Assembly (NCBI GenBank): GCA_016800925.1
Contig: JABCPU010000226.1
Coordinates: 46,665 to 110,664 of the forward strand
Direction of reading: 5' to 3'
Length of the DNA stretch: 64,000 bases
Source of the DNA: Suillus spraguei
Lineage: Eukaryota; Basidiomycota; Agaricomycetes; Boletales; Suillaceae
The translations under genes and the position numbers were made by a program. Below, in pieces: positions 2,685 through 59,486 of this stretch (positions are counted from its first letter, which is position 1; each line of letters opens with the position of its first letter). The notes beneath the pieces were generated by a model that saw nothing but the letters and a program-made list of their open reading frames with translations, was not told the DNA's origin and ran no database searches.

Positions 2685-2894
2685 TCTAAGAAGAAAGGGA
2701 GAACGGGTGGGAAAGTTCTCGCTAGCTCGCGTGGCTTTCGCGTACGTCGCGTAGGGCCATGTGGTTTTCGCTAAAGGCCACGTTTTTTCGGTTAGCTCGC
2801 TTAATTTCTCGCGTGGTTTTTTCGAGTGCCGACTGTTGTCCCATTGTGTGATTGCGTGATTGCGTGATTTGGTCACGTGACTGCGTAGCTGCCA
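2685..2894 (+). repeat. Solo 210-bp Helitron 5' end
   Basis: Starts TCTAAGAAGAAAGGGAG after host A and ends GTAGCTGCCA directly before the next TC. The same 210-bp segment recurs twice at 4551-4970. It is a truncated copy of the unit's 5' end, matching the later blocks through the CACGTG site and then stopping. Confidence 0.75.
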
Positions 2895-3540
2895 TCTATA
2901 AAGTAAGGGGGGAAAGGTGGGAAAGTGCTCGCTAGCTCACATGGCTTTCGCTTGCATCGCTTAAGAACGCTTAGCTCGGAATGGAAATTTCTCGCGTGGT
3001 TTTTTCGAGTGCCGCTCACTGTTGTCCCATTGTATGATTGCGTGACGTGATGCGTGATTGCGTGATTTGGTCACGTGACTGCGCAGCTGGTGGAATTTGC
3101 CATGGGTTGTCTGAAGCTGGGGTAAAACCAAATTATTAGGATGGAGCTGAGGCCAGGGAGCCAAAGGGAGTGTGAAGCCAAAAGTGAAGCCAAAAAGGAG
3201 TGCAAAGGAGTGGAAAGTGAAAAAGGAGGGCAAGCAAAAAATGAGTGCAATTGCAGAAGATGGCTGATAGGTAAAAACAGAAGGAACTCACCAGGGGCTG
3301 GAAGGAGTGGTCAAGTTGTCAGGAACAGGTTCATACCTATGACAAGCTACTCCATCAGGCACCAATACCAGCTTGGAAGTTGCCAGCAGGCTGGAAGTGT
3401 CCTCCCCTACCCTCAGGAAACATCTTCTGATAGATTTCTCTTAAATTGATTAAAATTTTGGCTATCAAAGAATCTAAACTTTGTCATTTGAAAAATCATT
3501 TTATTTGTTTCAAAAGCTGCTATGATCATTAGGATGGAGA

Positions 3541-4131
3541 GATGAGACACAAGATGGGAGATGGGAGGTGGGAGGTGGGAGGTGGGAGACAGGAGATGGG
3601 AGACGGGAGATGGGAGACGGGAGATGGGAGACACAAGACAGGAGATGGGAGACGGGAGATGGGAGACACAAGACAGGGGACGGGAGACGAGAGACGGGAG
3701 ACACAAGATGGGAGACGGGAGACGGGAGACACAAGACAGGAGATGGGAGATGGGAGATGGGAGACACAAGACAGGGGACGGGAGACGAGAGACGGGAGAC
3801 ACAAGATGGGAGATGGGAGATGGGAGATGGGAGATGGGAGATGGGGAGATGGGAGATGGGAGATGGGGAGATGGGAGATGGGGAGATGGGAGATGGGGAG
3901 ATGGGAGATGGGAGATGGGAGATGGGAGATGGGAGATGGGAGATGGGAGATGGGAGATGGGAGATGGGAGATGGGAGATGGGAGATGGGAGATGGGAGAT
4001 GGGAGATGGGAGATGGGAGATCGGGAGACAGGAGATGGGAGACACAAGATGGGAGACAGCAGACTGGTAAGAGGAAATGAGAGACAGGAGACCAGTAACA
4101 GGAGATGGGAGATGGGAGACGGGAGATGGGA
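3541..4131. repeat. GGGAGAT minisatellite, unit 1
   Basis: Seven-base repeats GGGAGAT/GGGAGAC with GACACAA and GGGGAGAT variants. The plus strand has GGG every seven bases. Because 7 is not a multiple of 3, every frame on both strands stays open and reads a seven-residue repeat, so the long frames here are not genes. Confidence 0.9.
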
Positions 4132-4393
4132 CACTTGCATGAATTTTGTTGTGCGACAACTTAATACTGTTGCCCCCTATTAAAACTTGACACAAAAGAT
4201 TTATTCAAGTTAATAGTTTGCAGTAAATAATTTTAAAAAATCAAAATCAAATGCAATGACATGAGGATGAGATGGGCAATAAACTCACAAAGATGGTGAT
4301 GTGGTACTTTTACTTCTCTCAAAATATTGGTTAAAGTTATAATTTATTTCAAGACCAATTATCATTATTAAAGATAATTATTAGGATGAAGCC

Positions 4394-4533
4394 AAGGCCA
4401 GGAAGGCAAAAAGAGTGCGAAGCACTCTTTTTGCCTTCCTGTGCCTTGGGCAAACAGAATTATTAGGATGAAGCCTTGGCCAGGGAGCAAAAGGAGTGCG
4501 AAGCACTCCTTTTGCTTCCTGTGCCGAAGGCAC
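4394..4533. repeat. 3' hairpin pair, Helitron unit 1
   Basis: Two consecutive hairpins. 4394-4447 has about 25-bp arms around GAGTGC-GAA-GCACTC; 4474-4530 has arms ending GGAGTGC-GAA-GCACTCC. A short terminal stem GTGCC-GAA-GGCAC (4521-4533) stands 17 nt from the CTCG end, where a Helitron 3' hairpin is expected. Confidence 0.8.
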
Positions 4534-4550
4534 AACGGGTGGTGGACTCG

Positions 4551-4970
4551 TCTAAGAAGAAAGGGAGAACGGGTGGGAAAGTTCTCGCTAGCTCGCGTGG
4601 CTTTCGCGTACGTCGCGTAGGGCCATGTGGTTTTCGCTAAAGGCCACGTTTTTTCGGTTAGCTCGCTTAATTTCTCGCGTGGTTTTTTCGAGTGCCGACT
4701 GTTGTCCCATTGTGTGATTGCGTGATTGCGTGATTTGGTCACGTGACTGCGTAGCTGCCATCTAAGAAGAAAGGGAGAACGGGTGGGAAAGTTCTCGCTA
4801 GCTCGCGTGGCTTTCGCGTACGTCGCGTAGGGCCATGTGGTTTTCGCTAAAGGCCACGTTTTTTCGGTTAGCTCGCTTAATTTCTCGCGTGGTTTTTTCG
4901 AGTGCCGACTGTTGTCCCATTGTGTGATTGCGTGATTGCGTGATTTGGTCACGTGACTGCGTAGCTGCCA
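4551..4970 (+). repeat. Two tandem solo 210-bp Helitron 5' ends
   Basis: Segments 4551-4760 and 4761-4970 read the same by eye and repeat the 2685-2894 segment. Each begins TCTAAGAAG and ends GCTGCCA. The internal joints have the form A|TC, the same context as a Helitron 5' insertion. Confidence 0.8.
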
Positions 4971-5648
4971 TCTATAAAGTAAGGGGGGAAAGGTGGGAGA
5001 GTGCTCGCTAGCTCGCGTGGCTTTCGCTAAACGCCACGTTTTTTCGCTTAGCTCGGTTTGGAAATTTCTCGCGTGGTTTTTTTTCAAGTGCCGACACAGT
5101 TGTCCCATTGTATGATTGTGTGATTGCGTGATGCGTGATTTGGTCACGTGTCATGTGACTGCGCAGCTGGTGGAATTTGCCATGGGTTGTCTGAAGCTGG
5201 GGTAAAACCAAATTATTAGGATGGAGCCAAAGGGAGTGTGAAGCCAAAAGTGAAGCTAAAAAGGAGTGCAAAGGAGTGCAAAGCAAAAAAGGAGGGCAAG
5301 CAAAAAATGAGTGCAATTGCAGAAGATGGCTAAACTCATCAGAGGCTGGAAGGAGTGGTGGCACCATCAAAAGGCATGGTCAAGTTGTCAGGAACAGGTT
5401 GATACCTATGACAAGCTACTCCATCAGGCACCAATACCAGGTTGGAAGTTGCCAGCAGGCTGGAAGTGTCCTCTCCTACCCTCAGGAATTGATAGATTTC
5501 TCTTAGATTGATTATAATTTTGGCTATCAAGGAATCTAAACTTTGTCATTTGAAAAATCATTTTATTTGTTTCAAAAGCTGCTATGATCATTAGGATGCA
5601 GAGATGGGGGGACAGAAGAGCATGGGGAGGAGAGAATGAAGGCATGAG

Positions 5649-6391
5649 AGATGGGAGATGGGAGATGGGGGATATGCAGGAGACAGGAGACAGGAGATGA
5701 GGGAGATGGGGGAGATGGGGAGATGGGAGATGGGGGACAGGAGATGGGAGATGGGAGATGGGAGATGGGAGACGGGAGACGGGAGACGGGAGATGAGAGA
5801 TGGGAGATGGGAGATGGGAGATGGGAGATGGGAGATGGGAGATGGGAGATGGGAGATGGGAGACGGGAGACGGGAGACGGGAGATGAGAGATGGGAGATG
5901 GGAGATGGGAGATGGGAGATGGGAGATGGGAGATGGGAGATGGGAGATGGGAGATGGGAGATGGGAGATGGGAGATGGGAGATGGGAGATGGGAGATGGG
6001 AGATGGGAGATGGGAGATGGGAGATGGGAGATGGGAGATGGGAGATGGGAGATGGGAGATGGGAGATGGGAAGATGGGAGATGGGAGATGGGAGATGGGA
6101 GATGGGAGATGGGAGATGGGAGATGGGAGATGGGAGATGGAGATGGGAGATGGGAGATGGGAGATGGGAGATGGGAGATGGGAGATGGGAGACACAAGAT
6201 GGGGGACACAAGATGGGAGACACAAGATAGGAGATGGGAGACAGGAGATCGGGAGACAGGAGATCGGGAGACAGGAGATCGGGAGACAGGAGATCGGGAG
6301 ACAGGAGATGGTAGACACAAGATGGGAGACAGCAGACTGGTAAGAGGAAATGAGAGACAGGAGACCAGTAACAGGAGATGGGAGATGGGAC
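5649..6391. repeat. GGGAGAT minisatellite, unit 2
   Basis: Longest array. About 5890-6068 is an uninterrupted run of roughly 25 copies of GGGAGAT, followed by ATCGGGAGACAGG variants near 6240-6310. The uniformity suggests recent expansion compared with the more mixed arrays of units 3 and 4. Confidence 0.9.
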
Positions 6392-6652
6392 ACTTGCATG
6401 ATTTTGTCATGTGACAACTTAATACTGTTGCCCCCTATTAAAACTTGACACAAAAGATTTATTCAAGTTAATAGTTTGCAGTAAATAATAATAAAAAAAT
6501 CAAAATCAAATGCAATGACATGAGGATGAGATGGGCAATAAACTCACAAAGATGGTGATGTGGTACTTTTACTTCTCTCAAAATATTGGTTAAAGTTATA
6601 ATTTATTTCAAGACCAATTATCATTATTAAAGATAATTATTAGGATGAAGCC

Positions 6653-6792
6653 AAGGCCAGGAAGGCAAAAAGAGTGCGAAGCACTCTTTTTGCCTTCCTG
6701 TGCCTTGGGCAAACAGAATTATTAGGATGAAGCCTTGGCCAGGGAGCAAAAGGAGTGCGAAGCACTCCTTTTGCTTCCTGTGCCGAAGGCAC
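6653..6792. repeat. 3' hairpin pair, Helitron unit 2
   Basis: Same two hairpins as in unit 1, with loops GAA, ending in the short stem GTGCCGAAGGCAC 17 nt before CTCG. Confidence 0.78.
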
Positions 6793-7544
6793 AACGGGTG
6801 GTGGACTCGTCTATAAAGTATGGGAGAAAGGTGGGAAAGTCCTCGCTAGCTCACATGGCTTTCGCTTAGGAGCGCTTGCTACGCTTAGCTCGGTTATTTC
6901 GCTTAACACCTTTTTGGAAATTTCTCGCGTGGTTTTTTTCAAGTGCCGACACAGTTGTCCCATTGTGTGATTGCGTGGATTTGTCACGTGCAGCGCCACA
7001 TGGGTTGAAATTTGCCACAGGTTGTCTGAAGCTGGGGTAAACACAAATTATGGGTTGTCATTTGCCACAGGTTGTCTGAAGCTGGGGGAAAATGAAATTA
7101 TTAGGATGGAGCCGAGGCCAGGGAGCCAAAAGGGAGAGTGAAGGCAAAAGTGAAGGCAAAAAGGAGTGCAAAGGAGTGGAAAGCAAAAAAGGAGGGCAAG
7201 CCAAAAATGAGTGCAATTGCAGAAGATGGCTGATAGGTAAAAACAGAAGGAACTCATCAGGGGCTGGAAGGAGTGGTGGTGCCATCAAAAGGCATGGTCA
7301 AGTTGTCAATACCTATGACAAGCTACTCCATCAGGCACCAATATCAGGTTGGAAGTTGCCAGCAGGCTGGAAGTGTCCTCCCCCACCCTCAGGAAAAATC
7401 TTCTGATAAATTGCTGTTAGATATTGGCTATCAAAGAATCTGAACTTTGTCATTTGAAAAATCATGTGATTTGTTTAAAAAGCTGCTATGGTCATTAGGA
7501 TGCAGAGATGGGGGGACAGGAGAGCATGGGGAGGAGAGAATGAA

Positions 7545-7867
7545 GGCATGGGAGATGGGAGACAGGAGACAGGAGATGGGAGATGGGAGACAGGAGACAG
7601 GAGATGGGAGATGGGAGACGGGAGACAGGAGATGGGAGATGGGAGACAGGAGATGGGAGATGGGAGATGGGAGATGGGAGATGGGAGATGGGAGATGGGA
7701 GATGGGAGATGGGAGATGGGAGATGGAAGATGGGAGATGGGAGATGGGAGATGGGAGATGGGAGACGGGAGATGGGAGACAGGAGATGGGAGACACAAGA
7801 CAGGAGACAGGAGACAGGAGACACAAGACGAGGGACACAAGATGGGAGACAGGAGATGGGAGACACA

Positions 7868-7898
<31 letters not shown>

Positions 7899-8090
7899 CG
7901 GGAGACACAAGACGGGGGACACAAGATGGAAGACAGGAGATGGGAGACACAAGACAGGAGACAGGAGACGGGAGACACAAGACGGGGGACACAAGATGGG
8001 AGACAGGAGATGGGAGACACAAGATGGGAGACAGCAGACTGGTAAGAGGAAATGAGAGACAGGAGACCAGTAACAGGAGATGGGACACTT
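7545..8090. repeat. GGGAGAT minisatellite, unit 3
   Basis: Mixed GGGAGAT, GGAGACA and GACACAAGAC variants. The first half is mostly GGGAGAT; the second half has higher-order repeats of about 60-80 bp containing ACACAAGACGGGGG. Confidence 0.88.
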
Positions 8091-8346
8091 GCATGATTTT
8101 GTGGTGTGACAACTTAATACTGTTGCCCCCTATTAAAACTTGACACAAAAGATTTATTCAAGTTAATAGTTTGCATTAAATAATTAAAAAAAATCAAAAT
8201 CAAATGCAATGACATGAGGATGAGATGGGCAATAAACTCACAAAGATGGTGATGTGGTACTTTTACTTCTCTCAAAATATTAGTTAAAGTTATAATTGAT
8301 TTCAAGACCTATTATCATTATTAAAGATAATGATTAGGATGAAGCC

Positions 8347-8540
8347 AAGGCCAGAAAGCCAAAAAGAGTGTGGGCAAAAGAGAATTATTGGGATGAAGCC
8401 AAGGCCAGGAAGGCAAAAAGAGTGCGAAGCACTCTTTTTGCCTTCCTGTGCCTTGGGCAAACAGAATTATTAGGATGAAGCCTTGGCCAGGGAGCAAAAG
8501 GAGTGCGAAGCACTCCTTTTGCTTCCTGTGCCGAAGGCAC
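8347..8540. repeat. Three 3' hairpins, Helitron unit 3
   Basis: A decayed hairpin (8347-8385, right arm mostly lost) followed by the two standard ones and the terminal stem GTGCCGAAGGCAC. Hairpin number varies between units: two, three, or four in unit 7. Confidence 0.72.
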
Positions 8541-8701
8541 AACGGGTGGTGGACTCGTCTATAAAGTATGGGAGAAAGGTGGGAATCTGCCTCGCTAGCT
8601 CACATGGCTTTCGCTTAGGAACGCTTAGCTCGGCTATTTCTTTTTGGAAATTTCTCGCGTGGTTTTTTTGAGTGCCGACTCACTGTTGTCCCATTGTATG
8701 A

Positions 8702-8801
8702 TTGCGTGACGTGATGCGTGAGTGCGTGACGTGATGCGTGAGTGCGTGACGTGATGCGTGAGTGCGTGACGTGATGCGTGAGTGCGTGACATGATGCGTG
8801 A
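8702..8801. repeat. 20-bp tandem repeat with TGACGTGA
   Basis: About five copies of GTGCGTGACGTGATGCGTGA, found only in unit 4; the other units have one or two copies of the same motif at this spot. TGACGTGA resembles an ATF/CREB-type bZIP site; any regulatory role is inference. Confidence 0.75.
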
Positions 8802-9319
8802 TTGCGTGATTTGGTCACGTGACTGCGCAGCTGGTGGAATTTGCCATGGGTTGTCTGAAGCTGGGGTAAAACCAAATCATTAGGATGGAGCCAAAGGGAG
8901 TGTGAAGCCAAAAGTGAAGCTAAAAAGGAGTGCAAAGGAGTGCAAAGCAAAAAAGGAGGGCAAGCAAAAATGAGTGCAATTGCAGAAGATGACTGATAGG
9001 TAAAAACAGAAGGAACTCATCAGGGGCTGGAAGGAGTGGTGGCACCATGGTCAAGTTGTCAGGAACAGGTTGATACCTATGACAAGCTACTCCATCAGGC
9101 ACCAATACCAGGTTGGAAGCTGCCAGCAGGCTGGAAGTGTCCTCCCTCACCCTCAGGAAAAACTTCTGATAAATTTTTGTTAGATTGATTATATTTTGGC
9201 TATCAAAGAATCTGAACTTTGTCATTTGAATAATCATGTTATTTGTTTCAAAAGCTGCTATGATCATTAGGATGCAGAGATGGGGGGACAGAAGAGCATG
9301 GGGAGGAGAGAATGAAGGC

Positions 9320-9550
9320 ATGGGAGATGGGAGGCAGGAGATGGGAGATCTGGGAGGCGCAGGAGACAGGAGACAGGAGATATGGGTGACGCAGGAGACA
9401 GGAGACAGGAGATATGGGTGGCGCAGGAGACAGGAGACAGGAGATATGGGTGATGCAGGAGACAGGAGATGGGAGAGATGGGAGATGGGAGATGGGAGAT
9501 GGGAGACGGGAGACGGGAGATGGGAGACAGGAGACGGGAGACGGGAGACT

Positions 9551-9583
<33 letters not shown>

Positions 9584-9711
9584 GATGAGAGACAGGGGAG
9601 ATGGGGGAGATGGGGAGATGGGGAGATGGGAGATGGGGGAGATGGGGAGACAGGAGAGATGAGAGATGGGAGATGGGGAGATGGGAGATGGGAGATGGGA
9701 GACAGGAGACG

Positions 9712-9765
<54 letters not shown>

Positions 9766-9940
9766 TGGGAGATGGGAGACAGGAGACAGGAGATGGGAGA
9801 TGGGAGATGGGAGACAGGCGACAGGAGACGGGAGACGGGAGACAGGAGATGGGAGACACAAGACGGGAGATGGGAGATGGAAGACACAAGACAGGAGATG
9901 GGAGACACAAGATGGGAGATGGGAGACACAAGACGGGAGA

Positions 9941-9983
<43 letters not shown>

Positions 9984-10091
9984 GGAAGACAGGAGACAGG
10001 AGACACAAGATGGGAGATAGGAGACAGCAGACTGGTAAGAGGAAATGAGAGACAGGAGACCAGTAACAGGAGATAGGAGATGGGAGATGGG
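9320..10091. repeat. GGGAGAT minisatellite, unit 4
   Basis: Begins with four higher-order repeats of about 40 bp (GCAGGAGACAGGAGACAGG plus GATATGGGTG, 9350-9460), then mixed GGGAGAT, GGAGACA and GGGGAGAT. The most diverged of the six arrays. Confidence 0.88.
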
Positions 10092-10353
10092 ACACTTGCA
10101 TGATTTTGTTGTGTGACAACTTAATACTGTTGCCTCCTATTAAAACTTGACACAAAAGATTGATTCAAGTTAATAGTTTGCAGTAAATAATTTACAAAAA
10201 TCAAAATCAAATGCAATGACATGAGGATGAGATGGGCAATAAACTCACAAAGATAGTGATGTGGTACTTTTACTTCTCTCAAAATATTGGTCAAAGTTAT
10301 AATTTATTTCAAGACCTCTTATCATTATTAAAGATAATTATTAGGATGAAGCC

Positions 10354-10493
10354 AAGGCCAGGAAGGCAAAAAGAGTGCGAAGCACTCTTTTTGCCTTCCT
10401 GTGCCTTGGGCAAACAGAATTATTAGGATGAAGCCTTGGCCAGGGAGCAAAAGGAGTGCGAAGCACTCCTTTTGCTTCCTGTGCCGAAGGCAC
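10354..10493. repeat. 3' hairpin pair, Helitron unit 4
   Basis: Both standard hairpins and the terminal stem GTGCCGAAGGCAC are present and well matched. Confidence 0.78.
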
Positions 10494-10892
10494 AACGGGT
10501 GGTGGACTCGTCTATAAAGTATGGGAGAAAGGTGGGAATCTGCCTCGCTAGCTCACATGGCTTTCGCTTAGGAACGCTTAGCTCGGCTAAACCTTTATTT
10601 GGAAATATCGCGTGGTTTTTTCGAGTGCCGATTCAATACACTGTTGTCCCATTGTATGATTGCGTGGTTTTGTCACGTGCAGCGCCACACGGGTTAAAAA
10701 TTTGCCACGGGTTGTCTGAAGCTGGGGTAAAACCAAATGATGGGTTGTCATCTGCCACAGGTTGTCTGAACCTGGGGGAAAATGAAATTATTAGGATGAA
10801 GCTGAGGCCAGGGAGCCCAAAGGGAGTGTTCAGCCAAAAGTGAAGCCAAAAAGGAGTGCAAAGGAGTGCAAAGCCAAAAAGAAGTGCGAAGG

Positions 10893-11456
10893 AGACGGGA
10901 GATGGGAGATGGGAGATGGGAGATGGGAGATGGGAGATGGGAGATGGGAGATGGGAGACAGGGGAGATGGGGGAGATGGGGAGACGGGGAGACGGGGGAG
11001 ATGGGGAGATGGGGAGACGGGGAGACGGGGGAGATGGGAGAGATGGGAGACAGGGGAGATGGGAGACAGGGGAGATGGGGGAGATGGGGGAGATGGGGAG
11101 ATGGGAGAGATGGGGAGATGGTAGATGGTAGATGGGGAGATGGGGAAGATGGGAGATGGGAGAGATGGGGAAGATGGGAGAAGGGAGATGGGAGATGGGA
11201 GATGGGAGAAGGGAGACGGCAGACGGCAGACAGCAGACAGCAGACGGGAGATGGCAGATGGCAGATGGCAGACAGGAGACAGGAGATGGGAGATGGGAGA
11301 TGGCAGACAGGAGACGGGAGTCAGGAGACAGGAGACAGGAGATGGGAGATGTGAGACACAAGACGGGAGACGGGAGACACAAGACAGGAGACGGGAGATG
11401 GGAGATACAGAAGATGCAGGAGATGGGAGACACAAGATGGGAGACAGGAGATGGGA
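10893..11456. repeat. GGGAGAT minisatellite, unit 5
   Basis: GGGAGAT copies, then GGGGAGAC/GGGGGAGAT variants and a patch of GGCAGACGGCAGACAGCAGA (11216-11240). It differs from the other arrays in its run of four- and five-G tracts. Confidence 0.88.
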
Positions 11457-11701
11457 CATGTGACAACTAAATACTGTTGCCCCCTATTGAAACTTGACAC
11501 AAAAGATTTAGTCAAGTTAACAGTTTCCAGTAAATAATTTAAAAAAAATCAAAATCAAATGCAATGACATGAGGATGAGATGGGCAATAAACTCACAAAG
11601 ATGGTGATGTGGTACTTTTACTTCTCTCAAAATATTGGTTAAAGTTATAATTTATTTCAAGACCTATTATCATTATTAAAGATAATTATTAGGATGAAGC
11701 C

Positions 11702-11841
11702 AAGGCCAGGAAGGCAAAAAGAGTGCGCAGCACTCTTTTTGCCTTCCTGTGCCTTGGGCAAACAGAATTATTAGGATGAAGCCTTGGCCAGGGAGCAAAA
11801 GGAGTGCGAAGCACTCCTTTTGCTTCCTGTGCCGAAGGCAC
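11702..11841. repeat. 3' hairpin pair, Helitron unit 5
   Basis: Standard pair. The first loop reads GAGTGCGCAGCACTC, so its loop is GCA-like instead of GAA. Confidence 0.76.
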
Positions 11842-12447
11842 AACGGGTGGTGGACTCGTCTATAAAGTATGGGAGAAAGGTGGGAATCTGGCTCGCTAGC
11901 TCACATGGCTTTCGCTTAGGAACGCTTAGCTCGGCTAAACCTTTATTTGGAAATATCGCGTGGTTTTTTCGAGTGCCGATTCAATACACTGTTCTCCCAT
12001 TGTATGATTGCGTGGTTTTGTCACGTGCAGTGCCACACGGGTTAAAAATTTGCCACGGGTTGTCTGAAGCTGGGGTAAAACCAAATCATGGGTTGTCATC
12101 TGCCACAGGTTGTCTGAACCTGGGGGAAAATGAAATTATTAGGATGGAGCTGAGGCCAGGGAGCCAAAAGGGAGAGTGAAGGCAAAAGTGAAGGCAAAAA
12201 GGAGTGCAAAGGAGTGCAAAGCAAAAAAGGAGGGCAAGCCAAAAATGAGTGCAATTGCAGAAGATGGCTAATAGGTAAAAACAGAAGGAACTCATCAGGA
12301 TGCTAAAACCCCAGAACAGCATGATGAATATTCAAGGAAACTCAAGGATGGCCCACCACCTGGGTGGAAACCCTGAGTCTATATTCCATTTAGAGTGTTA
12401 AATACTACATTTTAATAGATTATGTTTGGCAACAACTTGAGGAGAAA

Positions 12448-12781
12448 TGGGAGATGGGAGACGGGAGATGGGAGACAGGAGATGGGAGATGGGAGATGGG
12501 AGACGGGAGATGGGAGATGGGAGACGGGAGACGGGAGATGGGAGATGGGAGATGGGAGATGGGAGATGGGAGATGGGAGATGGGAGATGGGAGATGGGAG
12601 ATGGGAGATGGGAGATGGGAGATGGGAGATGGGAGATGGGAGATGGGAGATGGGAGATGGGAGATGGGAGACGGGAGACGGGAGACGGGAGACGGGAGAC
12701 GGGAGACGGGAGACGGGAGACGGGAGACGGGAGACGGGAGACGGGAGACGGGAGACGGGAGACAGGAGACAGGAGATGGGA
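12448..12781. repeat. GGGAGAT minisatellite, unit 6
   Basis: Shortest and cleanest array: a block of GGGAGAT (about 12530-12665) followed by a pure block of GGGAGAC (about 12666-12760), so one base change has spread in a sharply bounded segment. Confidence 0.9.
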
Positions 12782-13018
12782 CACTTGCATGATTTTGTGG
12801 TGTGACAACTTAATACTGTTGCCCCCTATTAAAACTTGACACAAAGATTTATTCAAGTTAATGGTTTGCAGTAAATAATTTAAAAAAATCAAAATCAAAT
12901 GCAATGACATGAGGATGAGATGGGCAATAAACTCACAAAGATGGTGATGTGGTACTTTTACTTCTCTAACAGAAAGCCAAAAACAGTGTGGGCAAAAGAG
13001 AATTATTGGGATGAAGCC

Positions 13019-13158
13019 AAGGCCAGGAAGGCAAAAAGAGTGCGAAGCACTCTTTTTGCCTTCCTGTGCCTTGGGCAAACAGAATTATTAGGATGAAGCC
13101 TTGGCCAGGGAGCAAAAGGAGTGCGAAGCACTCCTTTTGCTTCCTGTGCCGAAGGCAC
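13019..13158. repeat. 3' hairpin pair, Helitron unit 6
   Basis: Standard pair, preceded at about 12968 by a decayed partial hairpin (AGAAAGCCAAAAACAGTGTG) like the one in unit 3. Confidence 0.76.
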
Positions 13159-13378
13159 AACGGGTGGTGGACTCGTCTATAAAGTAAGGGGGGAAAGGTG
13201 GGAATGTCCTCGCTAGCTCACATGGCTTTCGCTTGCGTCGCTAAAGGCCACATGGGAACGCTTAGCTCGGCTAAACCTTTATTTGGAAATATCGCGTGGT
13301 TTTTTCGAGTGCCGATTCAATACACTGTTCTCCCATTGTGTGATTGCGTGATTTGGTCACGTGACTGCGCAGCTGGTG

Positions 13379-14245
13379 CGTTGTAGTTCCCTAGATATAC
13401 CCTCGAGCTCCAATCTTCGTTTCCTCTTTTCCCCACCACTGCTCCCCCTGCCACATCTTGAGAAAGTAATACTTTTTCAACATATTCAACCTCTGTTTGT
13501 TTTTCTCCTTTATTTTGGTAGATATCTTTCACTGTTCTTGATTCCTGTAAGCCTATATAGTGTACATATTGAAACTATGATAAAAATTAATGATTATGTA
13601 ATCAGATATCAGGCATTTTCGCTTTTTGACGTGTTTTTGGACCCTTTGGACCCCTGGACCTGGACCTGGACCCTGGACTGGCCGTATCTTGGAGTTTGAA
13701 GCATAGTGAGTGTGATTGTTGTTTGTTACTGGCCCTGTATTCCATCTGGACTCGCGAACTCCTGTTGATTCAAGACGAACGTGTAACCAAGTCCTACTTC
13801 CCTGGCCATCTGTTCTTGCAGGTGTTCGCTGGTTGTTTCTGGACCTCTGGGTATACTACAGTGTAGAGATTTTGGATTGGCGGGGCACTTTTCTGTGCTA
13901 AGTTGGTCTGCTTGCAGCCTTCTTACAGTTGCCATCCTATCCTTCGGGATAATTTCTCGGACAGCTTTCAGCTGTTCTTAGCACTGTCATACGTCGAACT
14001 TCCAGGGTATTAGCTCATCCTGGAAACTGCTGGTACTTCTTCAGTCACTCTCGGCAATATTTGTTTGGACCTTTGGTATGTGATATTTTGCTGTATATAT
14101 ATATAATAGGATGGCTTATCTTTGACACAGTGGAACTACGACTGTTGGATATTTGGTTCTTCTCTCTCTTTGTTTCATATATCTTCTCCAATGTATGTGG
14201 TTATTGACATATTTATTTATTTTGACTGATATTTATTCTTGATAG
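13379..14245. other. 5' non-coding part of the autonomous Helitron
   Basis: No long coding frame. Pyrimidine-rich tracts (CCTCTTTTCCCC near 13422), a GGACCTGGACCTGGACCCTGG run near 13655 and a TATATATATA stretch near 14095. A splice acceptor at 14245 (TTGATAG) shows that at least one upstream exon or a 5' UTR intron lies here, but its start codon was not found. Confidence 0.5.
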
Positions 14246-14846
14246 GAATCCCTCCACTCCTCCTACCTCTCCTCAGCGGGCACAGGCTGCTGCACGTCAG
14301 GCTGAGAGGAATCAACGAAATATTGGCTCCCCTCCTGCACGTCGCCATCCTGCTCCTATAGCTCAACCATTAGAAAATGCTCCTCAAATGGTAAGAATCA
14401 ATTTTCTGAGTTTCATGAGACATGTTCTGATATGTTCATAGAATATTCCTCAGATCTTGGGAAATTTGAACCATGGTCCAATTCCCATGCAAAGGTTTCC
14501 TAATATGCCACGTCATGTTATCGAGCATCATGAGGCTCAACGTATGTGGCGTCTACACCACCAACCACCACTACCTGGGCCACCTGTTCCTGCTCCAGCC
14601 TTAGGGCCACCCTTTGGTTATATTCCTCCACCAGCTGCACTTCAGAATGAGTATGAACGTCGTATGGCAAATGTTGCTGCAGCCACAATAAATAGTCATG
14701 AAGCACGGCGTGCTGCAAGGAGAAGGCGTAACAATCCTCAACAACAGCCAGCACCAGCACCTCCTGCTCCTGTCCCTGCTCCTGTCCCTGCCCCTGCCCC
14801 TGCCCCTGCTCCTGCTCCTGCTCCTGCCCCTGCCCCTGCCCCTGCC

Positions 14847-14888
<42 letters not shown>

Positions 14889-17800
14889 GCTCAGAATAAT
14901 AACTTAGCAGCCTTTCATTTGCTACAGCAGCAAGCTGCACAGGGACATAACATTCAGCAGCAGCTAGCTGAAATGGTTGCTAGACATGCTGAGGATTATC
15001 GCCGTGAACGGCAGCAGGAACAGGCAGCTGAACAGATGAATAGACAGAACTATGACCATTACATGCATGGTCCTATTCATTATGAGGGTGCAGTTGGTCC
15101 TCACAATTTCAACAATCCCCATCAATACTTTGCACATCATCCTGCACCACCTTTACATGCACTACCTCAACCTGATTATCAACAATTCAATGTTCAGTTT
15201 CAGCATGATTTACAGCAGGAACAGATTAGGGATGACTTGCTTAATAGACAAGCACAGGAGGCATTGCACCAGCAACAGATCCAGCAGCAACTCCAGCAGC
15301 AGGAAGCTGAGCAAATGCATAGACAAGCCCAGGAGGAGCAAGATGTCATTCACTTGCAGGAGCAGCAAAATAGACAAGCTCAGGATATTCTACGAGCAGG
15401 TCAACAGGAAGAGGAGCATTTCAATAGTCAAACTCAGGATCGTCAGTGAGCAGGTCAACAGGAGGAGGCCCGCCACAACCGTGAGCAGCAGAGAGTTCAT
15501 GAGGAGTGGGAGCGTCTTGAGGAGGCACTACATGAATATAATGACCCACTATCTCAAGAGCAACATGCAGATGATGAAGAGAGAAGGAGAATCCAGCAGC
15601 AGGAACAACACCAGGAGCATGAAGAGGAGGACAACCAGCATATTAATCAGGTCATTCCTATTCCTGATGGAGCCCAACCATATACAGAACCAGCCAACCG
15701 TCATACTCTTGGTCCCCTTAATGTGGAGTGTCCCAAATGTCATGCACTTCACTTTGCATGTGAAAGACTCTCCAACTCCTCTTTGCAAAACCCTCGCTTT
15801 GGTATGTGCTGCTTGCAGGGCCAAGTCAGCCTTCCCCCATTTCCAGCATGGCCACCTGAGCTGGAGCAGGCATATAGAGACAGAACATTTGTGTCAAAAA
15901 TTCGCCAATACAACAGTGCTCTTGCATTTACCTCTGTTGGTGTCAACATTGAGGATCGTGCTATTCAAAGATCTGGCCCAAATGCTTTTCGTATCCATGG
16001 CTCTCTCCATCACCTCATGGGCAGTCTTCTACCTCCAGAGGGTGTCCAGCCTTCATATGCACAACTTTATATATATGACTCTGAAGAAGCCACCAACATC
16101 CGCACCACCCGTCCTGGAAATGAAGGTCTTGATCGTCAGATTCTCAGAGATCTGCATGACATGTTGCATCGAAAACACCCCTATGCTGCTGTCTACAAGC
16201 AAGCCTATCAAGTCATGCAAGAGAAGCCTCCAGAGGAGCAGACAGATGTTTCTGTGCATATTCACTTCCTGCCAGGCACAGATGGTCGAAGATACAACCT
16301 TCCCACTGCCAATGAAATTGCTGCAGCTCTTCCTGGAGATGGATCTGAGGAGGTGTCTCATGAACGCGACATCATTTTATATTATCAAAATGGTCGACTT
16401 AGACGCATCAGTCAACTCAACCATGCATATGCCTGTCTTCATTATGTCCTTCTCTTTCCTAATGGAGAGGATGGCTGGGACCTCTACATTGATATGATCA
16501 TTCCTCAGGGTGGACGTGCACGTGCCAAAAAAGTGACTCAGCTGCTGTATTATGCCTTTCGGCTTCATCCCCGTCCAGCTTGCATTGACCACAACAACAT
16601 CTTTCGTGGTGGAAGGCTGTTCCAGCAGTATGTTGTTGATGCTTGGGCATCCATTGAGCAGAGCAGACTCAACTGGATAAGAAACAACCAGAAGAAGATC
16701 AGGGCTGACTGCTACCAAGGCCTCACAGACAATATTCTCAATGATGGAGTAGGCAATTTGGCTGAGACAGGTCGTGCTATAATCCTTCCCTCCTCTCATT
16801 CTGGAAGCCCTCGCTATATGCAGCAGCTACTGCAGGACTCCTTGGCCATCTGCCGTGCCTGCAAGAAACCTGATCTCTTCCTGACAATGACTGCCAATGG
16901 GAACTGGCCTGAGATTACTGAGAATCTCCTTCCAGGTAAAGTGACATACTGATGCATTATTATGACTTGATTCTGACAAGTTTTCTAATGTAGGTCAAAC
17001 TGCTGTGGACCGTCCAGACTTGGTGGCTCGCGTATTCTATCAAAAGCAGCAGGCTCTGCTGAAGAAAGTTCGCAATGGCTACTATGGCAAGGTTGCAGGA
17101 TTGGTGTACACCATTGAATATCAGAAGCGTGGTCTGCCTCACATGCACCTTCTCATCTTCCTGGATCCAGACCACAAGATTCGCACTGTGGAACAAATAG
17201 ACTCCTTCATCTCTGCCCAGATACCTGACAGAAATGTCCATCCCCAACTCTATGAGGCTGTGGAGAAATACATGCTTCATGGCCCCTGCTCTCCAGAACG
17301 TTGCTTGGAGAATGGACGTTGCAAAAAGCACTTTCCAAAGTCTTTCTGTGCCCAGACATTGATGAAGGAGGATGGCTATCCAGAGTATGCAAGACCTGAC
17401 AATGGTCGCACTGTCCAGAAGAATAACACTGTCTTCACCAACAAAGATGTTGTTCCTCACCCTCCACAACTCCTGGTGGAATTCAACTGCCACATCAATC
17501 TTGAAGTCTGTGCTTCCATCAAGTCTGTGAAATACATCCACAAGTACATCTACAAGGGAAATGACCGTGCCACTTTGGAGATGCCAGGACCAGTGGATGA
17601 GGTCAAAACCTACCTTGACTCCAGATACATCAGCTCCACTGAGGCTGCATGGCACATCTTTGAGTTTGGAATGCACCTTGAATGGCCCTCTGTCTACCGT
17701 CTGCCAGTCCACCTTCCAAATGAACACATGGTGTTTTATGATCCTGAGGATGATGCCCAGGATGTTCTTGAGCGTGCAGCAACCAAGGAGACTTGCCTTA

Positions 17801-19970
17801 CTGGATGGTTCAAAGCCAATGCCAACAATATCTTGGTGGCAGCTGGAGCCCATGACCACCTCTACCAGGACTTCCCCTCAAAATTCGTATGGAACAAGAC
17901 CGCATGGAAGGTGCGACAACGTGGAATGGCCATTGGAAGGATGTACTCTGCTGCACCTGGATCTGGAGAGCGCTTCTACCTGAGATTGCTTCTGACTGTA
18001 GTAAAAGGTATGATGCTCATGTCAATTTTTATCAATCAAACTCACCATGTATTCAAGGGGCCACCTCCTATGAGAACCTTCGAACAGTTGATGGTGTTTT
18101 ATATGACACTTTCAAGGAGGCATGTCGACGTAGAGGTCTGCTTGAGGATGACAATGAATGGATCCAATGCTTGCAGGATGCCTCTCACATGAGCACTGGA
18201 CATGGCATGCGCAATCTCTTTGCCATCATCCTCATCCACTGCAACCCTACAGACCCCAGTGATCTTTGGAACCAATTCAAGGACAATCTCTGCGATGATC
18301 TGCGTCACCACCTGTCTCATGCCCCATTCAACATTCCTAACCCTACAAATGAAGAGGTCTATGACTATGGTCTCTATCTTATTGATGGAAAGCTTCGCAA
18401 AAATGGAAAGTCTTTGCAAGTGATTCCTCAGATGCCTACACCTCAAATGGCAGCAAGATGGGGGGTCATGCAGGGAAATCAGCTCATTGCTGAGCAGCTC
18501 CAGTATAACCAGGAGGAGCTCCAGCAGATGGTGGATCCAGGAGTGCTTTCTCTCAATCAGGAGCAGAGGACAGTCTTTGATGCAGTGGTCAATGATGCCA
18601 TGCAAAGAAATGAGCAGACACCTGGACATGCATTCTTTGTCCACAGTGCAGGTGGATGTGGCAAGACATATCTCTGCAAGCTCATTGCCTCAAAACTCCG
18701 TGCTGAAGGCAAGATTGTCCTGTGTGTGGCTTCCTCTGGAATTGCTTCTCTCCTCCTGCCAGGTGGACGTACAGCTCATTCGCGATTCAAGATTCCAATC
18801 CCCATCAATGAGGACAGCTCCTGCAACATCAAGAAAGGAGATGTTGTGCATGAGCTTCTGAAGGCCACCTCCCTCATCATCTGCGATGAAATTCCAATGC
18901 TACACCGTCACAATCTGGAATGCCTTGACCGCTCATTGCGCGACCTTCTCAATGTTGATGCTGATTTTGGAGGATTATCCATACTCTTTGGAGGAGACTT
19001 CAGACAGACTCTACCAGTGGTGGCTCATGGATCCAGGGAGCAGATAGTGGGTGCTACCTTCTGCAGATCTCGCATCTGGCCAAGGCTTCAGATCTTCCAT
19101 CTCAAGACAAACATGCGCCTTGGTCAAGACCCTGCCTCTGATGAATTTGCCAAGTGGCTTCTGGAGATTGGAGCTGGAAAGAACACACATGCTGATGGAA
19201 CAGTGGTCCTTCCAATTCATATGCGCTGTGCCAACAATAGTGTCCAGTCTCTCATCAATGCCCTCTACTCTCCTATCCTGCTTCCTGACCATCCTCCTGT
19301 AAATGATTCCTTCTTCCTGGAACGTACCATCCTCTCTGCAAAAAACACTGATGTGGATGAAATCAATGCCAACATTCTTGAATTATTCTCTGGAGAAAAA
19401 GCAGTGTTCACCAGTGCAGACTCAGTTGCTGAGAGGGACTATGACTATATCCCTCATGAGTTCCTTCACACTCTGACACCATCAGGGTTCCCTTTGCACA
19501 AATTGGAACTCAAAGTGGGTGTTCCTCTGATGCTGTTGCGCAACTTGGATCCCACCAATGGCCTCTACAATGGAACCAGGATGATCCTCCTGTCTTGGAC
19601 CACACATGTGCTCAAATGTCGGATTCTCAAGGATGGAGTTGATGAAGCCCAGCAAGACAATCAGGACACAGTGCTGATTCCCAGGATGACTCTGGATGCC
19701 ACTGCTGAAGACAACCCAATCCCTCTAAAGCGTCGACAATTTCCTGTCCGTCTTGCATTTGCTATGACAATCAACAAGGCTCAAGGTCAAAGTGTGAAGT
19801 GGGTTGGACTGGATTTGAAAACTCCTGTGTTCAGTCATGGACAGTTGTATGTGGCATTGTCCAGGTGCACTCACCCAGAGAGAGTGTGTGCTATCTTTCC
19901 AGAGCATGAAGAAGGGTCAAAGACGACCAATGTGGTATATACAGAAGTGCTGAGAGGACTTGGAGATTAG
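14246..19970 (+). CDS. Helitron Rep/helicase protein, one in-frame TGA
   Basis: Rolling-circle replication initiator fused to a Pif1-type helicase. Visible exons: 14246-14390, 14442-16935, 16994-18007 and 18058-19970, with clean GT-AG introns. The N-terminal part has an Ala-Pro repeat (about 14740-14890) and a Gln-rich segment. The Rep domain has the HUH-type motif GLPHMHLLIFL (about 17131-17163) and a two-tyrosine motif YIHKYIYKG (17531-17560). The helicase has Walker A GGCGKT (18651-18668), Walker B ICDEIPM (about 18880-18900) and ends with the motif ALSRCTHPERV. Everything is open except TGA at 15447-15449, where the parallel segment upstream has CGA (RAGQQEE), so a single C-to-T change interrupts it. 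The true start is unresolved. No endonuclease or OTU domain seen, so canonical Helitron rather than Helentron type. Confidence 0.85.
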
Positions 19971-20082
19971 ATTGAGAATTGACTGATGTAGTTTTATGTA
20001 AAGTGATGTATAGTGTACTTTTAGTCTTGCTGAAATGGTGGTGAAATGTACATGTTTGTTTGAAGATTTACTATGATTATCA

Positions 20083-20415
20083 GGATGAAGCCAAGGCCAG
20101 AAAGTCAAAAAGAGTGCGAAGCACTCTTTTTGGCTTTCTGTGCCTTGGGCAAAAGAAAATTATTAGGATGAAGCCAAGGCCAGAAAGTCAAAAAGAGTGC
20201 GAAGCACTCTTTTTGGCTTTCTGTGCCTTGGGCAAAAGAAAATTATTGGGATGAAGCCAAGGCCAGGAAGGCAAAAAGAGTGCGAAGCACTCTTTTTGCC
20301 TTCCTGTGCCTTGGGCAAAGTGAATTATTAGGATGAAGCCTTGGACAGGAAGCAAAAGGAGTGCGAAGCACTCCTTTTGCTTCCTGTGCCGAAGGCACAA
20401 CGGGTGGTGGACTCG
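20083..20415. repeat. Four tandem 3' hairpins of the autonomous Helitron
   Basis: Three hairpins with GAGTGCGAAGCACTC cores (about 20094-20150, 20172-20228, 20255-20310) and a fourth with GGAGTGCGAAGCACTCC, then the terminal stem GTGCCGAAGGCAC and CTCG (20412-20415). Each hairpin is introduced by TTATTAGGATGAAGCC or a close variant. The host T follows at 20416. Confidence 0.8.
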
Positions 20416-21001: not shown

Positions 21002-24000
21002 CTATAATATCTCTACCGTTTTGACGTTCAACATGTCGCGAACAGCAGTCACGTCCTTGACGCGTGCGATGATGTCATGATCCGATGCGATCCTTTTGTA
21101 CTCCCCACCGCGCTGCTGTGCTAATAACAGTGCACCAAAAGGCTGTCCAAGGCGAACTATCAGCCTCAACGCTCGCGACTGAGACTCTACATCAACTAGG
21201 CCAAGTTCTTTAGGGTAGCCCAAAGATAAATCTTCTTGTGGAGACACAGGCACGGTCTCTGAGAAATCAGACAGCCCAAGGTCATGACGATTCCAGGGAT
21301 GGATGAGCAAGAACCTCTGCCGAAAAGGTCTTGCCTGCGAGAACTGAGTCAGCTTGTTTTCGGTGGTGATTAATAAGTCTTGAAGTCCGTCTGCTTTGAC
21401 GTCATATGTGAAACATGTCTCCCGGTGTAGACCGTGTCTCCTTGTGACTGATGTGACAAGAAAGGTGATGCAAGGAAGGAGGAGTCTGCGGTTCGCGAAA
21501 CGAGGAGCGCGTAGGTTGTCAAGCTGGGTATACAATACCATTGCCAACTCTACATCCGCGACATTTCGGAGGTTGGAGACCGATGCTTGCATCTCGTCTT
21601 CAAATAGGGATGGTGGTATGCATGGCGGCGCTTCGTATGAAGCAATATCGGCTGGCAAGCAGCTGTTGAACTCCGACGATTTTCCGACCCAGTCCAGGGC
21701 AGTGACATCACCCGACTGAGCCACAATCGCCTGTAACAGTCGCCCAAGAGCGTGATGCTTCTTCTCGCCATAGATTACAGGTAGATGAACACCAAAGATG
21801 CCAAACAACGAGTACGCGATATCTTCCTGTAATGTCGTGACACGTGTCGACGCCCAACGAAGTTTCTCACGTGCACCTCTCATCCCTGGACGGAAGTCCA
21901 CAAGGGCCTGGGCATTTATGCCTGTTGAATCCTCCAATTCATGCATGATAGCGACAGATTCCTTGTGATTGGGAGAGCGGTCATTGAGATATAGGGTCCA
22001 ATCTGCTTGGTAGAAGAGAACGACTCTGGGAGCCAGGAACTCTTGGACAGTCCATCCTCGCGTAATCCAAGCACTTTTTGCCAGTGCGCCAGACTTCGAC
22101 GATGGGGCAACGTCGGATAGGTAGACAATCGTAAGAGATGAATATCGATACCAGACAAACATGGAGTTGACCGATCGCTGCAGCTCAGCATTGTTATTTT
22201 GATCGATGCAACATGTATCGCTCCATGCCCAGCGATACCCTGCATCACGGGAAGTTTTGCAGAACGTCTGCAGCTTCACTACAGTTCCGACAGGATCCAA
22301 ATCGTATACGACCTTGTTCTGTATGTCGAGTAGCAGTGGCTCCTTCGCTTCCCACCTGTGCGATAACATCACCCAACGGAAGTACATCACCACCACCTCT
22401 TTGATGTACTCCATTTGAAGGTGCCCATGTGTCATCAACGAAGACATAAGCTTCTCGCACTCTGTGCTCTCCATGAAGGCTGTTGTCTGTGCCTGTTGAT
22501 CGCACAAACGCCCAGTGGAGGTATTGAGTAAACGAAGTGGGGCGGTGTCTAGGTGAGAATGAATCGCTTCTCGAATAGCACGTTCCGCTTCAGAAAGAGT
22601 AATATAATGGTATTGCCGACGTAGTTCTGAAGAAAAATGTGAGTATGCTCACATATTCATGAAAGATTCAGGACTTACGTCGTATCTGCGCATCGGGAAC
22701 ATCTTCCAACTTGGAGAGCATGATATTGAAGATCACGACTGCTTCATCATAGCGACGTACCCCGTAAAGCGCTTCATGCTTTAGTTCGTACCCGGTATAA
22801 GACGATGGATTGAGTTCGATCACCTATGCATTGACAGTGTCAACACGATGCTAAAATTATACATATCATCCGTACCTGTTCTGCGTCCGAGAGGGCTTCC
22901 TCATATAGGTTCCGTCTCAAATTCTGCTTACTGCGATGTATAAAAAGGGGGCTGTATGAAGGATCTAGCCCGATCCCTGCCGAATAAAGCTTGATAGCTC
23001 TTGCTTGTTCGTTTGCAACAACAGCTTCTTCTCCCTTGCTTACACAGCGTGCAATGCAGTCTTGCTTGAAGGCTAATCGACCTCGGGATCAATGGCGGTG
23101 CTCAAGTTGTCCAAGATACTCACTGATAGACCATCCGAGACAATTGGTCTTCTCAGCCTCATCAATCATGCGCATCATGTACTCATACGCTTCAACCGCT
23201 TCGATCACTTTATCCGCGCGGAGGAACGCATCGCACCGTCGTTGGTGGACGGTTTGCCATAACGAATCCAAGTCCCAACCGAAGAGCTGCAAAGCACATG
23301 TTATCAATTATTAAAAGTGTTGTGACGTTGTAGTGACCTACCACGGTGAATATCTTTAATCTGGGTTCGCAGAGTGCCACGCGCAAGGACAATCCAGTCA
23401 TAGTCGTAATGAGGACCTCGGTGAATTGTTCAGCAGCTTCGAGGTACCGCCCATTCTCAAAAGCAATGGTTGCAAGCTCTACATGCAAATATGACTGACG
23501 AGTGCATTTCAGGAAGACGGACGACACTCTGTGAGCCATGACATGAGACTCACGTTTACGACACTGCCCGGAAGTGTATCTAAGTGCTGACAAGTGGTGG
23601 CTAGGTCTTGAACTCGCCGGATTGCCTCGTCGCGATGACCTGCATTGAAAAGCGCAATAGCCTGAAAAGTTTCAGACTGAGACTGACTCAAATAGTACAA
23701 AGATTACCTTGATCAACAGTAAAAGATTAATGGTCATCGCATCATGAGTGGCAAATGTGAAAGCGAGATCAAAAGCTTCCAAGGCATTCCAAAGTTGCCC
23801 ATTGCCGCAAAGGGCAATGCCCTTAGAGATGCAGCCCATTAATGAGGGTTGGATAGCAACCGACTAGATCACCAAAGGAGTCAAGCCAACGGTCATGATA
23901 AACAGAGTGTCTTACGTTAATTGCATCTCGAAGTGCTTGGTCCCAATCTGAATTTCGCGCCATTACGACTGAGCGACTAGCATGAGAATCGCAGTTGTCG

Positions 24001-53823: not shown

Positions 53824-55186
53824 TACTGGAACAGCATGAGGAAGGAAGGTGACATTTTCACAGAACAGGAAGATAATTGCATGTGGGAGGTAGAACGGAA
53901 CTGAAGAAGTACACATGTAGCTATACTCAAACAAACAAATCTAAGTACATGTCCCATATGATGGGTATGTATGGCTGTAAACTTACGGTGTTATATGGTA
54001 CTCAAATGACCGTACACTGTAACCATCAATGAGAGCACTGAGGCTCCGATGATATGGGTATGGCTCACATTGTAATGAACATATTGGCACTGGCCTTGAA
54101 GCTTTATCTTTTAGCGCACGTCTCACGTCTATAGGAAACTCCACTCGTCCAAAGGCCGTTGTAACAAACATATTGGTGCTGGCCTTAAAACCCTACCTTT
54201 TGACACTCGTCTCACATCTATAGGAGTTACCACTTGTCCATGGCCATCTTATCCCTTTAGCACTTCTGGCGGCATCCCACACTTACCACACACCGTACTG
54301 ATTGCTGCACCACATTCCACATACCAATGTCCTCCCATGTCCTTGCCGTGTCCGCATAGCTCCATTTGGTGTGTTGTTTGTTTTATGTTCATTATCACTG
54401 ATTCCACGGCAAGTCTTATTACATATTGCCTCGTGCCGCAGCACCTCGCACTGTGTTTACATACGGCAGTTACTACACTCGAGCGCTACTGATCTCGCCT
54501 AGAGTATTCTGAATACACACAATTGAGGATATAAGCACTGCATACCCAGCATGATACAGTACCTGATTTTACCCCTTTGCACGTACTATAGGTCAGGATT
54601 ATTGTCTAGCTCTGGATCTACCCAGTAGTAGACTTAGTCTTTAAAGTTCCTTATTGCTCGTTAATTGATTATGCTCGTTCTCCATTACCGCTGGCATACT
54701 GCTGGACTTTTGATTGCTATTTTGACTGAACTTCTCGTGCACCGCTACTTTACCACTGAAAGTACCGTGGCCTTCTTTACTGTTTCTTTGCACTGCTCAC
54801 AACCTTACCGCTACCGCTGACATTGTTGCTCGCCACCGCTCGCTCAATGTTACTGATACTGACTCTATTTCAACGATGCTAGTACTGCTACATACAACAC
54901 TAGTTCCGGCAGCATCATCGCTGACCGCGGCAACTTACTGCTGACTACAACGCTACATTCGCACATTGGTTTGACTTGAACTTGACCATACTAACAGGCA
55001 TCCCCCTTTAGGGTCGAACACTCTTGTTTCACAAGTGAAGCAGACTAGATGGAGCGCAAGACCACACATACTAACTTAGGAGGTAGTTTATCTACAGCCC
55101 AGGTTAGATTGTATCTTTACAACGAGCCCCTTCAGTGACAAACTCCGTACTATATGGGTCACCCGACCAACATAATATCCCGTCAA
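53824..55186. other. Intergenic with a 90-bp duplication
   Basis: Two diverged copies of a segment of about 90 bp (about 54075-54160 and 54161-54245), each with CATATTGG-GCTGGCCTT and CGTCTCAC-TCTATAGGA. Further on, loosely repeated ACCGCT motifs (54680-54840). No gene recognised. Confidence 0.45.
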
Positions 55187-55716
55187 AGACGGGCCAGCGG
55201 ACCATGGGCCGAGGTTATGTATATCCTCGATGTTGACGGATGGGCCGGGGGGAAAATTATTTCCGACGGAGACGGGTGGGCCGGGAGACTTGTATTTGTG
55301 GGAGAGACGGGTGGGCCGAGGGAAACATGATTTCTGATGTTGACGGATGGGCCAGGGGGATATCATCCCCGACAGAGATGGGTGGGCCCATCTGGGTAGT
55401 ATGTAGAGTAGGATATTATAGACAGCTGGGCTGAAGAGAGATGCAAGGCAAATATTATTGCATAGACGGGTGGGCCGAGGTAAGAGAATATTACATATAC
55501 GGGTGGGCCGAGGTGAGAGAATATTACATATACGGGTGGGCCGAGGGGAGAGAATATTACATATATGGGTAGGCTGACGTGGGGTGTATTACATAGATGG
55601 GTGGGCCGAGGGTGCAGTAAAATATTTATTGCATAGACGGGTGGGCCGACGTGGGGGAATTTTACATAGATGGGTGGGCCGAGGTAAAATATATTACATA
55701 TACGGGTGGGCCTAGA
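55187..55716. repeat. GGGTGGGCCGAGG tandem array
   Basis: About fifteen copies of ACGGGTGGGCCGAGG separated by 18-40 bp of AT-rich linker. The last part has regular units of about 33 bp (GAGAATATTACATATACGGG). The first units use GACGGATGGGCC, so the array is graded. Confidence 0.8.
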
Positions 55717-59480: not shown

Positions 59481-59486
59481 ACTCAC

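Follow-up and report, generated by a model that had tools for sequence, protein, structure and literature searches.

We analyzed a window of 64,000 nucleotides from the basidiomycete Suillus spraguei (contig JABCPU010000226.1, here C399:46665-110664), in which seven Helitron units stand head-to-tail at positions 2685-20415, and searched for their relatives in the genome (86.2 Mb in 1256 contigs). We suggest that the units belong to a Helitron family with a two-tyrosine (Y2) Rep-HUH/PIF1 protein, an A^T target and a CTCG 3' end, whose copies are likely to insert repeatedly at the exact terminus of resident copies. Joints contain no intervening bases, the outer flanks are A and T, neighboring units are mostly unlike, and in five pairs of units on different contigs homology ends at the right border. 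In the proposed model, the left edge of a resident copy, A^TC, would be both an AT dinucleotide and the site of donor cleavage by the transposase. Insertion at the A^T of this edge would generate A[TC...CTCG]TC, i.e. a seamless head-to-tail joint, and repetition of the process by different donor units would give rise to heterogeneous arrays like the one in the window. The resident end would be picked because Rep cleaves there, and arrays would grow on their 5' side; had insertions instead used CTCG^T, the cleavage site at the 3' end of the resident copy, the resulting sequence would be identical. Du et al. 2008 (PMC2267711) report the argument of Pritham and Feschotte that an A should be found between copies. 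Contrary to this argument, no A is expected between copies if insertion is at the A^T of a resident edge. For Helraiser, Rep has been described to cut single-stranded left ends precisely where the flank meets the 5'-TC, and insertion to be mainly into AT (PMC4778049).

Structure of the array and its joints

The seven units have lengths of 1866, 2259, 1748, 1953, 1348, 1317 and 7240 bp. They lie on the + strand between a host A at 2684 and a host T at 20416, with the outer flanks reading ...CTGTTCTA before TC on the left and CTCG before TAGGGATT on the right. At all six joints, GGTGGTGGACTCG runs directly into TCTA (a CTCG-TC joint) with zero intervening bases. The seven units, the six direct joints and the A and T flanks had been proposed in a first-pass annotation, and all are exact to the base. 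In unit 1 (2685-4550), which has no Rep or helicase, a 210-bp A-type 5' fragment (2685-2894) precedes a second 5' end at 2895, while in unit 2 (4551-6809) two such 210-bp fragments are stacked (4551-4760 and 4761-4970) in front of a third 5' end at 4971. Units 3 (6810-8557) and 4 (8558-10510) are of the TCTATAAAGTATGGG type; unit 6 (11859-13175) has a 5' end that is 0.986 identical to that of unit 5 (10511-11858); and the last unit, unit 7 (13176-20415), is the only one in the array that codes for Rep-HUH/PIF1.

The ends of the units are mostly those of a canonical Helitron1. TCTA opens all seven units, giving the 5' TC. Helentrons have a T-T target. By contrast, the array stands between A and T, and lacks the target other than A^T that would mark a Helitron2/Helentron. 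The final 40 bases are identical in all seven units. In unit 7, they are preceded by a long subterminal hairpin with an 18-bp stem and a GAA loop (20347-20385), and a terminal hairpin, GTGCC-GAA-GGCAC (20386-20398), ends 13 nt upstream of CTCG, within the 10-15 given in PMC13286980. Together with the Rep and PIF1 domains described below, the TC start, the hairpin and the A/T target uphold the assignment to Helitrons. The departure is at the 3' end, where all seven units end in CTCG instead of CTRR, as the annotation had pointed out. HELPO2 of Pleurotus ostreatus, with a CTTG end that also lies outside CTRR, was nonetheless named a Helitron by Castanera et al. 2014 (PMC4289320); we therefore file the CTCG end as a variant. 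HELPO1 and HELPO2 are basidiomycete elements with an AT target as here, and the word "tandem" occurs zero times in the main text describing them (PMC4289320).

Relatedness of neighboring units and of units on different contigs

The annotation had pointed to rolling-circle read-through as the source of the array, i.e. a donor or circle would be copied several times without termination and the resulting concatemer inserted once. The exact CTCG-TC joints and the outer A/T flanks are consistent with this scenario, and tandem Helitron arrays in plants and bats have been cited as support for rolling-circle replication (PMC5876387). However, a joint without intervening bases is equally a product of insertion at a resident A^TC edge. 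The relatedness of neighbors bears on the question. We used a sample of 90 overlapping loci (L009-L098) plus the window, which is not random, having been drawn by similarity to the unit 7 5' end, by a 3'-end search in contig order, and for A-flanked ends. In 24 neighboring pairs with each joint checked (CTCG or CTCA), the first 220 bp from the outer 5' ends had a mean identity of 0.811 compared to 0.786 for 3103 different-contig pairs (permutation p 0.145, or 0.118 when C375, a probable duplicate contig, is left out). An earlier pairing by spacing alone, in which units 1 and 2 were represented by their inner 5' ends, gave 0.798 versus 0.788 for 25 pairs (p 0.60). At 21 of the 24 checked joints, the neighboring 5' ends are less than 0.97 identical, and only one of 41 array members is closer at its 5' end to its joint neighbor than to any sampled unit elsewhere; in the spacing-based set, 28 of 42 members have a 5' 220-bp match of at least 0.97 elsewhere. 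The 3' ends behave similarly (last 260 bp, 19 spacing-based pairs: 0.934 versus 0.919 for random pairs, p 0.78). Without C375, 6 of 18 pairs reach at least 0.97 at the 3' end compared to 27% of random pairs, and none of 29 members is closer to its neighbor than to some unit elsewhere.

Moreover, the seven units of the window differ in length, 5' type and interior. Based on neighbor similarity, we reject a single-donor concatemer for the whole array. We regard read-through as an unlikely general explanation: it could account for a minority of joints or for the moving of ready-made arrays, but is largely refuted as the single event behind the window array. The head-to-tail arrangement of Helitrons has been taken to indicate rolling-circle replication; here, this inference can be tested on more than 100 joints, and it fails for most of the 24 that were checked.

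Units also recur beside different neighbors. Among the 38 units that are complete in the sample, 25 different-contig pairs were alike by loose alignment, which permits cheap gaps and thereby inflates identity. Strict alignment over the first and last 150 bp, with a cut-off of 0.97 at both ends, kept six of these and dropped 19, which fell below 0.97 at one end or the other. Five of the six strict pairs diverge at the right border (0.44-0.83); for comparison, random 5' pairs average 0.71 with a 90th percentile of 0.86. Unit 5 and its twin at C315:127282 are 1.00 and 0.99 alike inside and 0.51 on the right, where unit 6 in the window corresponds to an A-type unit on C315. Similarly, unit 2 and its twin at C289:105008 are 1.00 and 1.00 alike inside and 0.42-0.44 on the right (unit 3 versus host DNA). 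C151:5368, C158:160380 and C554:23015 represent one unit (0.99 and 1.00) with left neighbors that comprise two different flanks and another unit and are 0.15-0.42 alike, and right neighbors that are 0.60-0.83 alike. Thus, homology stops at the CTCG-TC joint, as whole-unit insertion predicts, and the other right neighbors in five pairs add to the neighbor comparison in leaving read-through mostly unsupported.

The same pairs bear on a second explanation, in which an extrachromosomal circle carrying a CTCG-TC joint recombines homologously with a resident copy, so that a tandem arises by a single crossover. This has the advantage that no target choice is needed, and Helitron circles with exact end joints exist (PMC4778049, PMC5876387). 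Circle recombination, however, predicts internally chimeric units, whereas similarity in the five pairs holds at both unit ends and is lost at the right border, and we find it, too, improbable. A comparison of 5' bodies with 3' bodies, covering 10 of the 38 units, gave a Mantel r of 0.14 (p 0.23). The sixth strict pair, C554/C375, has 2.9 kb in common with one mismatch, and homology continues over both borders to where C375 ends; this is probably one locus assembled twice. C554 and C151 have a whole unit and the start of the next in common at 96%, and then diverge. Transposition of multi-unit blocks was also considered and rejected, as C554/C375 looks like a duplicate contig and C554/C151 diverge past the start of the next unit.

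A third explanation invokes a reshuffling of units between arrays, once a first insertion had taken place, by unequal crossing-over, ectopic exchange or gene conversion. The arrays at C158:160380-171808 and C224:230202-248938 agree without a mismatch over 1500 bp of right flank, whereas their left flanks are unrelated and their first units differ, which argues that exchange between arrays, or else an assembly join, also occurs; C158 ends 4.4 kb past the array, making a join possible. Exchange cannot generate the first exact joint, and we think it doubtful as the source of the arrays, and more so than recombination with circles or read-through.

Several observations speak against serial insertion at the resident terminus, or limit how far the data support it. 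Three of the 24 checked joints have 5' ends at least 0.97 identical (units 1/2, units 5/6 and one on C3; all 0.986) compared to 2.7% of random pairs; two of the three lie in the window, and they are what read-through predicts. Units 1 and 2 are also identical to each other over their last 260 bp. This small excess of similar pairs among mostly unlike neighbors could stem from duplication or read-through and, therefore, one or the other probably made some joints. In addition, the right neighbors of C158:160380 and C554:23015 are 0.83 alike, near the 90th percentile of random pairs, and the left borders of internal units are uninformative, since even random 3' ends resemble each other (median 0.97). 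Best-match identity to units elsewhere gives no clear left-to-right age order along the array. Finally, no array was caught before and after an insertion, and 500-bp flank searches did not find an empty site in this genome: the left flank matched only itself and the right flank itself plus one weak 105-bp match. The empty site that the annotation had deduced from the flanks is, accordingly, not recovered here.

Ends, joints and target choice across the genome

A search of the 86 Mb with the 25-base 3' end, allowing up to three mismatches, returned 207 + 171 = 378 places. The reversed pattern, used as a control, returned 0, and the matches are therefore not due to chance. The exact 17-base 3' end is followed by T in all 241 cases and by A, C or G in none. 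In 108 of the 241, it runs directly into the 5' end TCTANNAAGNA, i.e. forms a head-to-tail joint; this count leaves out joints with a TCTCTAAG start, as on C315. The array in the window is thus one of many in this genome, and C392, for instance, has ten such 3' ends in about 27 kb. Pattern-matched 5' ends lie after A in 76 cases and after another base in 88 (by hand count 72 G, 15 C and 1 T), numbers that are not a census because the patterns miss the TCTATAAAGTATGGG type. In the sample, from whose end counts eight loci (L001-L008) found with a too-short first genome pattern were excluded, there are 86 distinct 5' ends, 46 with A and 40 with G as the preceding base; 30 loci had been chosen for an A before the 5' end. 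All 40 G belong to CTCG, so that A or the G of CTCG precedes 86 of 86. T follows 59 of 59 sampled 3' ends, and 37 of the 59 are joints. These ends fit A^T insertion as in canonical Helitron1.

If 241 insertions were distributed at random over the approximately 6.6 million AT sites of the genome (extrapolated from the window, and assuming 250 resident edges), about 0.01 edge matches would be expected; 108 were observed. Another AT lies four bases into the element (TCTA^TAAAG); 0 insertions were found there in the genome, and there is, therefore, no general attraction to the region. No exact head-to-head joint was present at the 46 A-flanked 5' ends and no tail-to-tail joint within 20 bp of the 59 3' ends. 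Among the 46 A-preceded ends, six follow GCTGCCA, six follow CTCA (a joint in which CTCG reads CTCA) and 34 are others. Of these 34 "host-type" ends, at least three lie, by eye, in or beside another copy. At C225:92240 (minus strand), a unit appears to be inserted at A^T in the inverted 5' region of another copy, and at C324:32887 at A^T within the interior of another unit. At C346:61067, the joint lacks CTCG and reads ...GGTGGTGGA followed by TCTAAGAAG, again with A before TC.

Near-identical 3' ends, 7-bp minisatellites and the apparent duplicate contigs C554/C375 raise the question of whether the arrays are an assembly artefact. With 108 joints, and with units, flanks and lengths that differ within the sample, we consider this very improbable.

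In maize, one pair of Helitrons that is polymorphic between lines has been described (Du et al. 2008, PMC2267711). As here, a 3' end (CTAG in maize) is joined straight to a 5' TC, the units are unlike, and consecutive insertion was proposed, with both AT (5' edge) and GT (3' edge, non-canonical) as suggested targets. Thus, one pair with both explanations is already known; unlike in maize, there are 108 joints in one genome here and a test of neighbor relatedness, and scale and test are what is new. We found no other genome-wide test of this kind for Helitron arrays in the limited library of literature searched. Helraiser/Helibat1 (PMC4778049, PMC5876387) similarly have a Y2 HUH Rep with helicase, insert mainly at A/T and form exact end-to-end joints; their joints were seen in circles, while those described here are in chromosomal arrays. 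Since the stacking of dissimilar units at a single terminus produces a joint that is just as seamless, CTCG-TC joints alone do not prove circles or concatemers.

Composite 5' ends, the coding unit and neighboring features

About 210 bp into A-type elements (e.g. on C69, C151 and C411), the sequence reads ...GCTGCCATGGG..., while units 1 and 2 and the copies on C289 and C225 there read ...GCTGCCA followed by TCTATAAAG or TCTAAGAAG. The exact pattern detects seven such composite places in the genome, three of them in the window. Their sequence fits a scheme in which a second Helitron entered at this A^T, after which mobilization ran from the outer 5' to the inner 3' end. The same route was proposed for FoHeli elements with several 5' termini (Chellapan et al. 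2016, PMC5148889). FoHeli occur in Fusarium oxysporum and relatives, with three tandem copies in Metarhizium acridum, and resemble the elements described here in having several 5' termini and one 3' terminus, ascribed to self-insertion and an outer 5' start. By contrast, they belong to the Helitron2 type, with different ends and asymmetric terminal inverted repeats, and FoHeli1 and 2 target T/A (PMC5148889), while the S. spraguei family has an A/T target, a TC start and a CTCG end.

Shorter fragments are also stacked. At 7 of the 34 remaining left edges, the element is abutted, flush or nearly so, by 4 nt or more of its own 5' prefix. Five of the 34 carry stacked 5' fragments of 6-13 nt, some twice, which look well beyond chance: C278:8755 (12 nt), C455:44056 (4 + 12 nt), C455:10529 (6 nt), C539:9145 (two pieces, with TA after each) and C696:16278 (8 + 11 nt). 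The C912 piece (4 nt + 1) and the piece at the left edge of the window's array (4 nt) may be chance. Earlier pieces in the stacks also end in A; the A of the last piece is a consequence of edge selection. In the element, TCTATAAAGTAA is followed by G and not T, and the 12-nt pieces are therefore not accounted for by nested insertion at A^T; for the 11-nt piece, an A^T of the TCTATAAAGTATGGG type is a possible source. All stacked fragments would be accounted for if A^TC were cut repeatedly, followed by short resynthesis and rejoining. We tentatively suggest, with somewhat less than even confidence, that the resident left terminus is a preferred acceptor, i.e. that old copies are cleaved at A^TC by the transposase and receive new 5' ends there, so that the family homes to itself, with abortive rounds giving short stacked fragments (TCTATAAAGTAA abutting TCTATAAAGTAA and so on) and successful rounds complete units. 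Duplications at the 5' end of less than 200 bp have been described (PMC5148889); for the very short stacked fragments we found no description in the literature searched. With this family, the question of whether the ends of an element are re-targeted by its own transposase could be addressed in a natural setting.

In unit 7, a presumed exon at 15450-16937 (+) contains the first part of Helitron_like_N (PF14214, E 1e-36) and a second at 16993-18008 (+) the rest (E 9.7e-18), with HMH at ~17140 and YIHKY at ~17533, i.e. a Rep HUH nuclease with two catalytic tyrosines. The presumed next exon of the same gene, at 18057-19970 (+), with splicing deduced from the frames, encodes a PIF1-type helicase (PF05970, E 7.5e-72; PF21530) with the Walker A motif GGCGKT at ~18651. 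Relatives of this helicase exon are numerous (3816 of 7985 scored candidates at E <= 0.001). Upstream lies a P/Q-rich frame (14442-15449, +) for which Pfam returned nothing at E 0.01; it is closed by an in-frame TGA (15447-15449), which, as judged from the reading frames, may break the gene or lie outside it. The single coding unit is in register with the others, as annotated; given this TGA upstream of the Rep domain, it may not be autonomous.

The coding unit had also been said to have its first 200 bp and its terminal hairpins in common with the short units. For the first 200 bp this is imprecise: over the first 230 bp, unit 7 is 67-81% identical to units 1-6, while its last 181 bp match the 3' end of a related C289 unit at 96.7% identity. 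Its termini are common to all units, and its interior gave no match to units 1-6 (blastn, E 1e-5). Because no common interior was found, we rejected the possibility that units 1-6 are simple internal-deletion copies of unit 7, and the claim that the array documents how short units derive from their parent is mostly unsupported. Each of units 1-6 contains about 0.3-0.75 kb of a 7-bp purine minisatellite, GGGAGAT/C (window 3552-12781).

Outside the array, a HET-domain (heterokaryon incompatibility) protein is encoded approximately 0.6 kb away (window 21002-22645, strand -; PF06985, E 1e-12). Further along, window 54070-63995 comprises several tandem repeat families of longer period (33-335 bp) that reach the contig end, the last being a 171-bp satellite.

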